From NCBI GenBank assembly GCA_903856025.1, contig CAIOAQ010000185.1:1-40399 (forward strand): DNA of 40,399 bases, given 5' to 3'. A program made the translations under genes and the position numbers. Positions 7,200-30,243 of this stretch are shown here, piece after piece (position 1 is the first letter of the stretch; every line of letters begins with the position of its first letter). The DNA comes from an uncultured beta proteobacterium (GTDB taxonomy: Bacteria; Pseudomonadota; Gammaproteobacteria; Burkholderiales; Burkholderiaceae_C). A model generated the notes under the pieces. That model searched no databases, had not been told where the DNA came from, and saw nothing but the letters and a program-made list of their open reading frames with translations.

Positions 7200-8486
7200 A
7201 TGAACACCATGTTTGAACATCTCCATTTGACCGATCTCCCCTTTGCTGCCAGATGCCGGTTCAGCGTCCGGTTTTGTCGGACGTTTCTGGTATCCCTGAT
7301 GGGGTGTGTAGCTTTGATTGGTTTGACGCCGCTGGCATCGGCGGCCACCGAAGCTGCGCCCGCCCATGGTGTGGCCCCAACGGCCGCCGCACATGCGCCT
7401 GAAAAGAAATCGTCCGCGGCGGACGGTGCATCTGAAGAAAAATCGGTGGCGGTGGACATTAAGGCGGCGCTGCGCGAACAGATGTTGGGTAAAAAAGGCA
7501 TCATGCTGGTGGTGCGGGACAAGTCATCCGCCAAGTCGGGGGCAAGTTCGGAAGACGCCCCCGAGCCCGCGCACGCGACACCGGCTGCACACGCCGCTGT
7601 TGCAACCGCCGCAGATCATGCGCCTGCCCGGGTGATCACGGTGCATACCTCGGCCGCACATGCAACTCCGGCGTTCAATGCGCGTTCCAGTCGGGCGTAC
7701 ATCCGAGCCAAGGCAGCAGCCCTGACCGGTCACGAAGTAGCAGACGTTTCGGCTTCGGAAACGCATGGTGCAACTGCGCACGGGAGTGATGCACACGCTG
7801 GCGAGCCGCATTGGGCCTACGAGGGCGAAAACGGCCCGCAAAACTGGGGCAAGCTCAAGCCTGAATTCAACCTGTGCGCGATTGGCAAACGCCAGTCGCC
7901 CATCAATATTGAAGAATCCGCGACCTTGCAAGGCCCAGCAGAACCGTTGCAATTCAATTACACACCCTCCATCGGCAGTGTGGTGAACAATGGTCACACC
8001 ATCCAGGTGGACGTGGCGGGAGACAACACGCTGACGGTGCGTGGCTCGGTCTACAAACTGGTGCAGTTTCACTTTCACACCCCTTCCGAAGAGCAGGTGA
8101 ATTTCCGCAACTTCGCCATGGTGGCGCATTTGGTGCACAAAAATAACGAAGGCCAGTTGGCCGTGGTGGCGGTGTTGCTGGATCCTGGCGTGGCCAACGC
8201 ATTGATCAACAAGGTCTGGACCTACATGCCGCTGGACACGAGCGACCGGGTGCGCATGCCCGATGGTTTGATTGACATGAACGAACTGCTGCCCAAAGAC
8301 CAGCGCTACTACCAGTTCATCGGGTCATTGACCACCCCGCCGTGTACCGAAGGCGTGCTGTGGATGGTGATGAAGCAACCCACACTGCTGAGTCGTGAAC
8401 AGATTCGTCTGTTCCAGCAACTGTTTCCCAACAACGCGCGACCGGTGCAGCCGGTGAATGCTCGCGCAGTGCGCAACGCCCAATAA
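7200..8486 (+). CDS. Alpha-class carbonic anhydrase with long Ala/His-rich N-terminal extension
   Basis: RQSPINIE, QFHFHTPSEE, AHLVHKN, GSLTTPPCTEGVLWMVM; hydrophobic N-terminal segment. Confidence 0.92.
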   Translation: MNTMFEHLHLTDLPFAARCRFSVRFCRTFLVSLMGCVALIGLTPLASAATEAAPAHGVAPTAAAHAPEKKSSAADGASEEKSVAVDIKAALREQMLGKKGIMLVVRDKSSAKSGASSEDAPEPAHATPAAHAAVATAADHAPARVITVHTSAAHATPAFNARSSRAYIRAKAAALTGHEVADVSASETHGATAHGSDAHAGEPHWAYEGENGPQNWGKLKPEFNLCAIGKRQSPINIEESATLQGPAEPLQFNYTPSIGSVVNNGHTIQVDVAGDNTLTVRGSVYKLVQFHFHTPSEEQVNFRNFAMVAHLVHKNNEGQLAVVAVLLDPGVANALINKVWTYMPLDTSDRVRMPDGLIDMNELLPKDQRYYQFIGSLTTPPCTEGVLWMVMKQPTLLSREQIRLFQQLFPNNARPVQPVNARAVRNAQ

Positions 8487-8588
8487 TTCCATTCCTAAAT
8501 CATCCGCGTCGTTGTTGCAACGCCATGTCGTGCGTCAGCACTGCCCGTGGCTTCGCGCCTAGACAAAAATGATTTGGAATTGGAATAA
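8485..8588 (+). repeat. ~104 bp structured palindromic repeat, copy A
   Basis: AATTCCATTCCTAAATCATCCGCGTCGTTGTTG...GTCGTGCGTCAGCACTGCCCGTGGCTTCGCGCCTAGACAAAAATGATTTGGAATTGGAATAA; matches copy B at 29291 with imperfect terminal inverted repeats. Confidence 0.9.
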
Positions 8589-8685
8589 CGACGGTGGCGT
8601 GATGGCGAGGGCGTGAGCAGGCGAAAATGCGGGTTGGGCACTGATTTGAGCCCGTATTGACATCAACCTCTTACCCCTTTTGCCG

Positions 8686-9408
8686 ATGCATACCTCTGCC
8701 CTCGTTCTATTTTCTGGTGGCCAGGATTCCACCACCTGCCTGGCGCAGGCCCTTTCCAAATACCAACGTGTTGAAACCATTGGTTTTGATTACCGCCAGC
8801 GGCATCGGGTGGAACTTGATGCCCGGGTGAAGGTGTTGGCCGAAATCCGTCAAACTTTTCCGGCATGGAGCGACAAGTTGGGCCAGGACCATCTGCTGGA
8901 TCTGGCGGTGCTGGGCGAGGTGAGCGAGACTTCGCTGACGCGTGACACGGCTTTCAAAATGGAGCAAAGCGGCTTGCCCAACACCTTTGTGCCAGGGCGC
9001 AACCTGCTATTTTTGACTCTGGCTGCGGCCGTGGCCTACCGGCGCGACCTGCAGGTGATGGTCACCGGGGTGTGCGAGACCGATTTTTCAGGATACCCGG
9101 ATTGCCGCGACGACACCATGAAAGCCATGCAGCTGGCTTTGTCGCTCGGAATGGACAAGCGGTTTTTGGTGGATACGCCGCTGATGTGGATCGACAAAGC
9201 CGCCACCTGGACCCTGGCGCACGAGCTGGGCGAAAAATCTGGCGTGGTCGGTGGCGGGGATGCGCTGGTGAAGCTGCTCATCGAGCACACCCACACCTGT
9301 TATTTGGGCGACCGTGAGCACCACCACCCTTGGGGCTATGGTTGTGGCGATTGCCCGGCTTGCCTGCTGCGGGCGCGGGGTTATGAGCAGTTCGTACAGG
9401 CTGTTTAA
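8686..9408 (+). CDS. queC: 7-cyano-7-deazaguanine synthase QueC
   Basis: [59 protein letters not shown] zinc site. ATG at 8686 preferred. Confidence 0.97.
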
Positions 9409-26365: not shown

Positions 26366-28438
26366 ATGTACTTATTATTTGAAGAAACCGGCAAGTTCCT
26401 GGCGGGGCGCATGCTCTCTGAGGCGGACACCTCGGCGCAGGTAGAACTTGATTCCGGCAAGCGCCTCAAGGTCAAAGCCGCCAACATTCTGTTGAAGTTT
26501 GAAAAACCCGAGCCCTCCCAACTGATGGCCGCAGCGCAGGCCGTGGCGGCGGGCATTGAGCTGGACATGGCCTGGGAATTCGCCCCCGAGGGGGACTTTG
26601 CTTTTGCGGAGCTGGCGCGTGACTATTTCTCAGCGCAGGCCACGCTGGCGGAGCAAGCTGGCACGCTCATGGCGCTGTATGACGCGCCCCATTACTTTCG
26701 CCGTGCAGGCAAAGGGCGGTTTCGCAAAGCCAGCGCTGACATCCTGACCCAGGCCTTGGCGGCGATTGAGAAAAAGAAACAAATCCTGTTGCAAATTGAA
26801 GCCTGGGTGAAGGAATTGAGCGAAGGCGTTTGCCCGCAGCCGATTCGCGACCAGCTCTACAAGATTCTCTTCAAGCCTGACAAAAACGCGCCTGAATACA
26901 AGGCCGTGGTGGAAGCCTCCCGCGCCACCCACCTGGGGCCGCTGGATTTGCTGATCAAGGCCGGTGCCATTGACTCGCCCTACCAGTTTCACTGGAAGCG
27001 GTTTTTGTTTGACAACTTCCCCAAGGGCACCGGGTTCCCGAAGCTGGATGCGCCGCTCATCACCGACGAGCTGCCGCTGTCCAGCGCGCGCGCGTTTTCG
27101 ATTGACGACTCGGCCACCACTGAAATTGACGATGCCTTAAGTGTGCAAGGCCTGGGCACGGGGACGGTGTTAGTGGGCATTCACATTGCGGCACCGGCGC
27201 TGGCCATCACGCCAGGCAGCGCGGTCGACCACGTGGGCCGCGCGCGCCTGTCCACGGTGTACATGCCAGGCTACAAGCTGACCATGCTGCCGGATGAGGT
27301 GGTGCAAAACTACACCCTGATGGAAGGGCGCGACTGCCCGGCGGTGTCACTTTACGTCACGCTGGATGAAGCCACGCTGGAGATCAAAAGCAGCGAAACC
27401 CGCTTGGAGCGGGTGCACATAGGTGCCAATTTGCGCCACGACCAGCTCGATGCGGTGGTCACGCTGGACTGGCTGACTGATCCCGCTGTTAAACATGAAA
27501 TTGACCCGCAGCCCCTGCAACACAAGCGTGAGCAGCTCTCATTTTTATACCGCCTTGCGAATGACCTGAAGGCCAAGCGCGAAGTGGTGCGCGGCAAACC
27601 TGAAAACTTCAACCGCCCGGACTACAACTTCAGGCTGGTCGGAAACGAGGGTCGTGCGCCCGATGGCTCTGAAAGTGTAGAAATCAGCGTGCGTCAGCGC
27701 GGCGCGCCGCTGGATTTGATTGTGTCCGAGGCGATGATCCTGGCCAACAGCACCTGGGGCAGTTGGATGGCCGAGTTGGGTGTGCCCGGCATTTACCGCA
27801 GCCAGGCATCGATGTTGCCCGGTGTCAAGGTACGCATGGGCACCAAGGCCTTGCCGCACGCCGGCATTGGCGTGAAAAGCTACGCCTGGAGCAGTTCACC
27901 ACTGCGCCGTTACGTCGATCTGGTCAACCAGTGGCAAATCATTGCCTGCGCGCGCCACGGGAAAATGGCGGCGCTGGCCGCACCGTTCAAGCCCAAGGAT
28001 GCCGAACTGTTTTCCATCATTTCGGGTTTTGATGCCACTTACAGCGCCTACAACGGCTATCAAAACGCCATTGAACGTTTCTGGACGCTCAAATACGTGC
28101 AGCAAAATGACCTGGTGGAGGTAGAAGCCACGCTGTTCAAAGACAACCTGGTGCGCGCTGACCACCTGCCGCTGGTGCTGCCGGTGACGGGCGCACAGGG
28201 CCTGCCGCGCGGCGCACGGGTGCGGGTCAAGCTGGGCGACATCGACCTGGTGTCGCTGGACATTCACGGCACGGTGCTGGAGCGGCTGGACGCAGAGCCA
28301 CAAGCCATGGAGGGCGACGACGACCAGGACGACGATACCGTTTCCGGCCCGATCGCCATCGCGGTGGATGTCAATGAAGTGGACGCTGGCGACGCCGCTG
28401 CCCCATCCGTCACCCCAGAAGCTAACCAGGCACCGTGA
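26366..28438 (+). CDS. RNB domain exoribonuclease (RNase II/R family)
   Basis: ARAFSIDDSATTEIDDALSV, VGIHIAAPA, YMPGYKLTMLPDEVV, SSPLRRYVDLVNQWQI. ATG at 26366 preferred over 26324. Confidence 0.92.
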   Translation: MYLLFEETGKFLAGRMLSEADTSAQVELDSGKRLKVKAANILLKFEKPEPSQLMAAAQAVAAGIELDMAWEFAPEGDFAFAELARDYFSAQATLAEQAGTLMALYDAPHYFRRAGKGRFRKASADILTQALAAIEKKKQILLQIEAWVKELSEGVCPQPIRDQLYKILFKPDKNAPEYKAVVEASRATHLGPLDLLIKAGAIDSPYQFHWKRFLFDNFPKGTGFPKLDAPLITDELPLSSARAFSIDDSATTEIDDALSVQGLGTGTVLVGIHIAAPALAITPGSAVDHVGRARLSTVYMPGYKLTMLPDEVVQNYTLMEGRDCPAVSLYVTLDEATLEIKSSETRLERVHIGANLRHDQLDAVVTLDWLTDPAVKHEIDPQPLQHKREQLSFLYRLANDLKAKREVVRGKPENFNRPDYNFRLVGNEGRAPDGSESVEISVRQRGAPLDLIVSEAMILANSTWGSWMAELGVPGIYRSQASMLPGVKVRMGTKALPHAGIGVKSYAWSSSPLRRYVDLVNQWQIIACARHGKMAALAAPFKPKDAELFSIISGFDATYSAYNGYQNAIERFWTLKYVQQNDLVEVEATLFKDNLVRADHLPLVLPVTGAQGLPRGARVRVKLGDIDLVSLDIHGTVLERLDAEPQAMEGDDDQDDDTVSGPIAIAVDVNEVDAGDAAAPSVTPEANQAP
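27497..27553 (-). repeat. Degenerate dispersed element copy (antisense within RNB gene)
   Basis: Minus strand GCGGTATAAAAATGAGAGCTGCTCACGCTTGTGTTGCAGGGGCTGCGGGTCAATTTC. Confidence 0.5.
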
Positions 28439-29292
28439 AGCTGCGGCAATTCAGTACCCTCCAACTTGCACTGGGTGCCTCCCTGGTGGTGCATGCGGCT
28501 TTGCTGACGGTACGCTTTGTGGACCCTGAAGCCTTCAACAAGGTGTTTGAAGACACGCCGCTGGAAGTGATTTTGGTCAACGCCAAGACGGATGAGCGCC
28601 CGACCAAAGCGCAGGCCATTGCCCAGGCCAACATGGCCGGTGGTGGCGAAGCGGAGCGTGGCCGTGCCACCAGTCCGTTGCCGCCGGCGCTGATCAACCT
28701 GTCGGGTGAAGACAACGTCTCACAGACCGAGCGGGAAGTGCTCAATTTGCAGGAACAGCAAAGCCTGATGCTTGGGCAGGTGAAAAACATGCTGCGGGCT
28801 TTGCCGCCGGTGGACCTGCACAAGCCTGAGGTCACCCCCGAGCAGGCACAGCGTGAGCAAAAGCGCCGCGAGCTTGTCAAGCTGCTGGCCGAAATTGAGC
28901 GCCGCATCAACCAGGAAAACGCCCGCCCGAAAAAACGCTATGTCAGCCCGGCGACCAAAGAGGCGGTGTACGCGCTCTATTACGACCATTTACGCCGCGC
29001 CATTGAAGACAGAGGTACCGAGAATTTTCCGCAGTTGAACGGTCAAAAGTTGTATGGTGAGCTGACCATGATCGTCACCATCAACCACAACGGCCAGGTG
29101 CTTGCCACCGAGATCGTGCAAAGTTCGGGGCGAGGGGCGCTGGACCGACGTGCCCAATTGATTGCCCGCAGCGCCGGGCCGTTTGAACGATTCAGCAAAG
29201 ACATGCGCCGCCAGGCCGATCAAATCGCCGTGGTGTCGCGCTTCAAGTTCACCCGCGACGATGTACTCGAAACCAAACTCAGCCACAATTAA
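28435..29292 (+). CDS. TonB C-terminal-like (energy transducer TonB family) protein
   Basis: N-terminal hydrophobic anchor, PLEVILVNAKT, C-terminal GELTMIVTINHNGQVLATEIVQSSGRGALDRRA; GTG start overlapping the upstream stop. Confidence 0.8.
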   Translation: MKLRQFSTLQLALGASLVVHAALLTVRFVDPEAFNKVFEDTPLEVILVNAKTDERPTKAQAIAQANMAGGGEAERGRATSPLPPALINLSGEDNVSQTEREVLNLQEQQSLMLGQVKNMLRALPPVDLHKPEVTPEQAQREQKRRELVKLLAEIERRINQENARPKKRYVSPATKEAVYALYYDHLRRAIEDRGTENFPQLNGQKLYGELTMIVTINHNGQVLATEIVQSSGRGALDRRAQLIARSAGPFERFSKDMRRQADQIAVVSRFKFTRDDVLETKLSHN

Positions 29293-29395
29293 TTCCATTT
29301 CTAAATCATCCGTGTCGTTGTTGCTTTGCCTTGTCGTGCGTCAGCACTGCCTGCGGCTTCGCGCCTAGACACCCATGATTTTGAAATGGAATAAA
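29291..29395 (+). repeat. ~105 bp structured palindromic repeat, copy B
   Basis: AATTCCATTTCTAAATCATCCGTGTCGTTGTTGC...GTCGTGCGTCAGCACTGCCTGCGGCTTCGCGCCTAGACACCCATGATTTTGAAATGGAATAA; ends TTCCATTTCtAAATCATccGTGTC / GACACccATGATTTtGAAATGGAA pair at 21/24. Confidence 0.92.
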
Positions 29396-29409: not shown

Positions 29410-30243
29410 ATGACACTTGACCACTACTGCGTGATGGGCAACCCCATCAGCCACAGCCGCTCGCCGTGGATTCACACCCGGTTTGCCGAACTCACTGGCG
29501 AGCCGGTGTTTTACGACAAACGCGAAATTCCGTTGGACCACTTTGACCGCAGCGTGCAAGCCTTCATTGCCGAGGGGGGGCGTGGCTGCAACATCACCGT
29601 GCCCTTCAAGTTTGAAGCCGCGGCCCTGGCCACCCACACCAGCGAGCGCGGGTTGTTGGCACAGGCCTCCAACGTCCTGACATTCAAAGACGGCCAGATA
29701 CTGGCGGACAACACCGATGGCATCGGACTGGTGGACGACATCGAGCGCAATGCAGGCGTGCCGCTTAAAGGTCTGCGTTTGCTGTTGATCGGGGCCGGTG
29801 GTGCCGCTGCGGGCGTGCTCGGCCCGCTGATCCATGCGCAACCGACCCACATCAGCGTGGCCAACCGCACTGCGCACCGCGCGCAGCAGTTGGTAGAGCG
29901 GCATCAACCCTTGGCATTGCTTCAAAAAACAGAGCTTGTATCCCATGATTTACAAGGGATAGAGGGCGATTTTGATGTGGTTATCAACGCCACCGCCAGC
30001 AGTCTTGGTGGCCACGGCGTGCCGGTGCGTGCCAGCGTGCTGAAGCCGGGTGCGCTGGCCTACGACATGATGTACGGACCCGGCGCCCAAGGTTTCATGG
30101 ATTGGGCCAAACAACACGGCGCGGTGGCGCGCGATGGTTTGGGTATGCTGGTGGAACAGGCCGCCGAGGCCTTTTTGATCTGGCGCGGCGTGCGTCCACC
30201 CTCCGCTCAGGTGTTGACCGAGCTGCGCAAGGTGATGGGCTGA
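29410..30243 (+). CDS. aroE: Shikimate dehydrogenase
   Basis: YCVMGNPISHSRSPWIHTRFAELTG, GCNITVPFK, ADNTDGIGLVDDI, LLIGAGGAAAGVLGPL, DMMYGP. Confidence 0.97.
   Translation: MTLDHYCVMGNPISHSRSPWIHTRFAELTGEPVFYDKREIPLDHFDRSVQAFIAEGGRGCNITVPFKFEAAALATHTSERGLLAQASNVLTFKDGQILADNTDGIGLVDDIERNAGVPLKGLRLLLIGAGGAAAGVLGPLIHAQPTHISVANRTAHRAQQLVERHQPLALLQKTELVSHDLQGIEGDFDVVINATASSLGGHGVPVRASVLKPGALAYDMMYGPGAQGFMDWAKQHGAVARDGLGMLVEQAAEAFLIWRGVRPPSAQVLTELRKVMG
29917..29974 (+). repeat. Degenerate dispersed element copy inside aroE
   Basis: TTGCTTCAAAAAACAGAGCTTGTATCCCATGATTTACAAGGGATAGAGGGCGATTTTG. Confidence 0.65.

Follow-up and report, generated by a model that had tools for sequence, protein, structure and literature searches.

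The palindromic repeat that occurs twice in the 40,399-nt stretch of DNA analysed here (the window) is probably a non-autonomous MITE of the IS630 type, which targets TNA, is inserted in a way that spares stop codons and carries a conserved 3'-UTR hairpin core between ends that change from one repeat family to another.

That two copies of a repeat lie about 20.8 kb apart had been claimed in an earlier note made from the letters alone, and they are real: copy A (8484-8588) and copy B (29290-29394), each 105 nt long including the flanks, are 88% identical and spaced 20,806 bp. The element proper of copy B, whose borders were set by the alignment of more than 100 copies and by empty sites in relatives, is a mobile element of 99 bp without a gene (29293..29391, + strand, as are all features given below). 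It begins with a left terminal inverted repeat, TTCCATTTCTAAATCATCCGTGTC (29293..29316), that resembles the ends of an IS630-family IS, and terminates with the right inverted repeat GACACCCATGATTTTGAAATGGAA (29368..29391), the two ends being paired at 21 of 24 positions, exactly as had been stated. Between and partly within them lies the hairpin core (29310..29374; 82 bits with our covariance model R2), topped by the apical hairpin GCCTTGTCGTGC-GTCA-GCACTGCCTGCGGC (29328..29357), with near-invariant arms and a variable loop. A TAA stands on either side (29290..29292 and 29392..29394); the left one is the stop codon of the upstream gene encoding a TonB C-terminal domain (28435..29292), whereas the right one is found 15 bp ahead of aroE (shikimate dehydrogenase; 29410..30243), which adjoins the TonB_C gene in relatives devoid of the element. 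Copy A (8487..8585, with TAA duplications at 8484-8486 and 8586-8588 and a core at 8504..8568 scoring 69.6 bits with R2) has an equivalent position: it follows a carbonic anhydrase gene (PF00194; 7200..8486), whose terminal TAA was the target, and precedes queC (8680..9408). Thus a stop codon is indeed present at the junction of both copies, as had been noticed, but its TAA lies outside the element proper and represents the target-site duplication instead of the first bases of the repeat. The RNA of copy B folds with -39.9 kcal/mol (z = -6.9 vs shuffles) and that of copy A with -35.9 kcal/mol (z = -4.1), so that the stem of the former is better, although not to the extent previously suggested.

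The draft genome to which the window belongs (labelled G000; 4.04 Mb, 592 contigs) contains 31 matches to the repeat. Matches occur in 25 of the 37 genomes of the genus that were searched (G000 being counted) and in none of 24 genomes outside it, an abundance that is far above chance, and exact core matches among named records are mostly from Rhodoferax. No match to the element was found in phages and none to the whole element in plasmids, and the exact Rhodoferax end is contained in none of the viral contigs; the pattern of the apical hairpin recurs without mismatch in 11 IMG/VR contigs (L420-L430). When the copies are aligned by their ends, an element of 99 bp emerges, TTCC...GGAA, flanked by three bases that are equal on both sides (TAA/TAA, TGA/TGA, TTA/TTA or TCA/TCA) and usually bordered in turn by a G or C. 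An identical TNA is present on both sides in 66 of 108 independent full copies of the genus, and where both flanks are TNA the same N is found in 65 of 73 copies, 21 being expected by chance. Since the flanks form a direct repeat, their middle base being equal and not complementary, they constitute a 3-bp target-site duplication. In about 25 relatives the tonB-aroE junction is found devoid of the element, such empty sites consisting of the tonB TAA, a spacer of 4-44 bp and aroE; four of the relatives shown have unrelated sequence or Ns in that place instead. The persistence of this gene pair in the absence of the element indicates that copy B is an insertion. Short length, lack of coding capacity, 24-nt terminal inverted repeats, target duplication and empty sites are all found, and the identification of the repeat as a MITE that duplicates a 3-bp TNA target is well supported. 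The surmise of a MITE-like element with a preference for targets that include TAA is thereby borne out, the actual target being TNA, mostly flanked by G or C.

A related IS with matching ends had also been proposed as something to look for, and an IS630-family IS is present in the same genome. Searching G000 for the ends revealed ~20 sites at which contigs break 26-200 bp after TNA-TTCCATTTCTAATTCAT, these breaks being those of a multi-copy IS collapsed by the assembly. The sequence TNA-TTCCATTTCTAATTCAT(T/A)AGTG is present at 19 IS ends of G000, with a G or C before the TNA in 17 of them, and the left ends of the IS share 20 of 23 bases with those of the MITE; the MITE thus has in common with an autonomous IS both its ends and the STNA target. 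The left end of the IS runs into a reading frame, the relative of which in G001 encodes a transposase; two frames that overlap at an A8 run make up this gene, and its parts match HTH_33, DDE_3 and the NCBIfam IS630 model. The only nearly complete IS copy seen, that of G001, has a decayed left end and flanks (TCA/TAA) that do not match. By its transposase the partner IS belongs to the IS630 family; the target described for the IS630-type RUP is TA (PMC2229807), whereas the present group duplicates TNA. A 1.7-kb element having both MITE ends (G000:C380) was considered as a possible parent and rejected, being a nested IS of the IS1182 family.

Outside the genus, an order-wide search with the element yielded matches in ten other genomes, in all cases restricted to the middle (~80-90% identity over ~50 nt), and these middles are located between other inverted repeats. 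One such end set, TATAGTGGATTAA, delimits a 107-bp element that matches named Neisseria gonorrhoeae records at 97%, in at least 40 places each, and which is the Correia element described in the literature (PMC3898611, PMC2229807); another, AGAGCGGCTAACA, has matches in Cupriavidus metallidurans CH34 and Eleftheria terrae and is likewise flanked by TNA. When aligned, the cores fold into a hairpin of three parts in which compensatory changes are seen, and altogether at least nine distinct sets of inverted-repeat ends surround them. Order-wide, the covariance model R2 finds the core in 106 of the 399 genomes, belonging to 58 of the 159 genera sampled, and it does so in 25 of 399 genomes of a phylum-wide draw, a second large family being among them; the counts per genome are lower bounds, capped at 13. 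So wide a distribution over genera, combined with such a variety of ends, indicates that the core is the conserved unit and that the ends are replaceable. In 45 distinct matches 94% of the pairs are standard, with an apical helix that pairs in all of them, and the covariation score is 0.53 vs 0.18 ± 0.012 for shuffled and at most 0.134 for slid alignments; this alignment was fitted to the model and leans towards it, and a MAFFT alignment agrees (0.349 vs 0.147). In the apical hairpin of 108 copies of the Rhodoferax genus the arms are conserved at 0.92-0.93 and the loop at 0.53, which points to a constraint on the stem and not to mere youth of the copies. No Rfam 15 family reaches its gathering score in the window, the only match being a chance one with an E value of about 1. 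From these comparisons the homology of the core between families is well supported, and the earlier reading of the repeat as a palindrome, correct as far as the MITE-like character is concerned, had missed a core that is common to the Correia elements and to many other repeats. Convergence on a generic hairpin would be conceivable for so short a sequence, yet it is very unlikely, being at odds with the ~80-90% identity over ~50 nt that extends to unpaired positions, with R2 E values of about 1e-15 and with the lack of a match in 374 of the 399 genomes of the phylum-wide draw.

The position of the copies was compared with genes predicted by a simple codon-score caller. Of 134 independent left junctions, 50 fall precisely on a stop codon, and any other spacing from the upstream stop is seen at most twice; the right junctions do so in 16 of 129 cases, giving an orientation bias of 50:16 sense to antisense (p = 3e-5). 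The null initially used for stop codons (9%) was too generous, and the effect persists when the null is restricted to the short gaps between called genes: here 44 of 64 copies are on a stop codon vs 22% of the candidate TNA sites (p = 1.5e-15), with a sense:antisense ratio of 32:12. The bias varies by genome: 15 of 22 left junctions are on stops in G000, whereas in G021 this applies to 1 of 25 junctions on the left and 4 of 21 on the right. G021 carries the repeat at the highest density, with 43 pattern matches in 2.7 Mb, many of them decayed and often flanked by TCA. Similar placement is seen in five further genomes whose elements have about four other end sets: the upstream stop, 17-23 nt before the core, coincides with the border of the element, with about 26-28 of 45 copies in the sense position and at most 6 in its mirror image, and in one of these genomes (G383) all nine copies directly follow a TGA. 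Forty loci of mixed origin, for which the gene calls were poorer, gave a sense excess of 12:6, which is not significant. The catalogue of copies, advocated in the earlier note with the proviso that the idea should be abandoned if neither stop-codon bias nor consistent boundaries were seen, has therefore returned both: fixed borders with an identical TNA base in 65 of 73 cases and a strong stop-codon bias, mostly in the sense orientation, though not in every species. On the other hand, none of the 19 junctions of young IS630 copies in G000 is on a real stop codon, a finding which argues that the bias is not a simple insertion preference of the transposase.

The following sequence of events probably accounts for these observations. 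The 99-bp non-autonomous transposon, probably moved in trans by the IS630 transposase, inserts at TNA and duplicates it; because TNA includes both TAA and TGA, an insertion into a stop codon preserves that codon, so that the upstream gene would remain complete with its stop restored and the whole downstream spacer would stay joined to the next gene. Such insertions would survive, and they are indeed strongly over-represented. The ~50-nt core, not being tied to a single transposon, would be carried by many unrelated ends and would be retained because it acts in the RNA of the 3' UTR of the upstream gene, possibly as a processing or stability hairpin or as a device that renders the insertion harmless. 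The survival of insertions that keep stop codon and spacer accounts for part of the bias; the orientation bias asks for something more than insertion preference and survival. In the sense strand the apical helices contain G-U wobbles in 42 cells and A-C in none, many of these cells being of common ancestry. The fold energy, tried as a proof of a sense RNA, fails as such, since in whole Rhodoferax elements the antisense RNA is more stable than the sense RNA (-42.1 vs -36.9 kcal/mol). Transcripts of NEMIS are reported to be substrates of RNase III (PMC2229807), and their processing represents a precedent, as NEMIS carries a homologous core; an RNA role in the 3' UTR seems likely but unproven. 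The widest version of this reading is put forward tentatively, its chances being somewhat short of even: a single conserved RNA hairpin module would have spread through Burkholderiales and other proteobacteria by means of unrelated transposon ends, would settle in sense at stop codons and, as a mobile part of the 3' UTR, would influence the transcript of its host, Correia being only its Neisseria branch.

A purely selfish MITE, whose core is kept only for transposition as a host-factor site or for DNA fold-back and whose excess at stop codons is survivorship, the stop codon being the safest TNA of a short spacer, is a substantial, if rather doubtful, alternative. It would be in keeping with the TNA target and its duplication, with the stop-restoring geometry, with the young IS copies being elsewhere than on stops and with the missing bias in G021; survivorship alone, however, does not lead one to expect sense excesses of 32:12 and 50:16, nor the recurrence of the same placement with unrelated ends, and the occurrence of G-U in sense but never of A-C suits an RNA. 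That the host has recruited the element as a transcription terminator or another 3'-end signal, as had been suggested, is unlikely: in its favor are the stable hairpin right after the stop codon and the convergent gene faced by 15 of 37 left-stop copies, whereas scans of copy B detected neither an intrinsic terminator, with its G+C hairpin and T run, nor a sigma-70 promoter, and the other 22 of these 37 copies lie ahead of a same-strand gene, 13 of them within ~50 bp, which together make a strong terminator improbable; at copy B such a signal would cut off aroE. As for the proposed kinship with REP/BIME palindromes mobilised by a RAYT (Y1) transposase, the existence of many copies of an extragenic palindrome is the feature that invites it, but members of that class are palindromes of 20-40 nt with a GTAG foot and without target duplication, a description contradicted here by the two-sided 3-bp TNA duplication, by the absence of the GTAG foot and by ends common to a DDE IS, so that this origin is extremely improbable.

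Correia elements have so far been treated as a peculiarity of Neisseria. The presence of their core elsewhere opens the old question of the function of these repeats to comparison in harmless bacteria, and the stop-codon geometry offers a simple account of how a transposon may enter short operon spacers without damaging them. The Correia elements (CREE, NEMIS) are similar to the present one in being ~105 bp long, in having terminal inverted repeats and no gene and in carrying the homologous core in the same orientation; they differ in their 26-bp ends (TATAGTGGATTAA as opposed to TTCCATTTC), in the duplicated target (TA as opposed to the 3-bp TNA) and in their suggested partner, which is IS1106, an IS5 member (PMC3898611, PMC2229807), and not an IS630-like element. 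There is a precedent for a MITE that has its ends in common with an IS630 element, namely RUP of Streptococcus pneumoniae (~107 bp), which is believed to depend for its movement on an IS630-family transposase with such ends (PMC2229807); it differs in its TA target. BRE is a ~90-bp repeat of many betaproteobacteria (Bordetella, Polaromonas, Delftia and Rhodoferax, with four copies in R. ferrireducens), some copies of which overlap the ends of ORFs by a few bases and one of which overlaps the small RNA BprJ (PMC3110155); it has been reported as a tandem VNTR with 69% GC and no described ends and, compared with the present core by description only, may be a lead to a further member of the same group. 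A 2008 survey of stem-loop repeats had already singled out a 46-bp central core within NEMIS and a structured Bordetella family, Bor-1, between which the passages concerned draw no link (PMC2267715). As far as the literature consulted and Rfam show, it is new that an element spread through the genus duplicates TNA and is placed at stop codons and, most importantly, that a covarying core joins Correia to many betaproteobacterial repeats with unrelated ends.

Some minor observations may be added. The tonB-aroE spacer is longer or unreadable in four relatives (L266, L271, L273 and L275) and seems therefore to be prone to insertions; in one of them (G032:C320, L266) a different palindromic repeat of ~130 bp occupies the same junction. 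Copies side by side in tandem, an arrangement also reported for BRE, are found at G000:C129 2017-2212 and G021:C181 4149-4302. The genome G010 contains a short form of ~57 bp without core (L086, near 2490) as well as a longer form, in which an additional hairpin is present internally (L087, 1182-1309), which indicates that the ends can move with other middles. The ~20 near-identical IS630 copies fragment the G000 assembly, many contigs (e.g., L088-L105) ending inside the IS. Finally, the nested IS1182-family IS, which encodes a 445-aa transposase (L083, 1566-3241), has entered a MITE copy at its CTAG and duplicated this tetranucleotide, and the CCTAGAC of the core may serve as an IS landing site.
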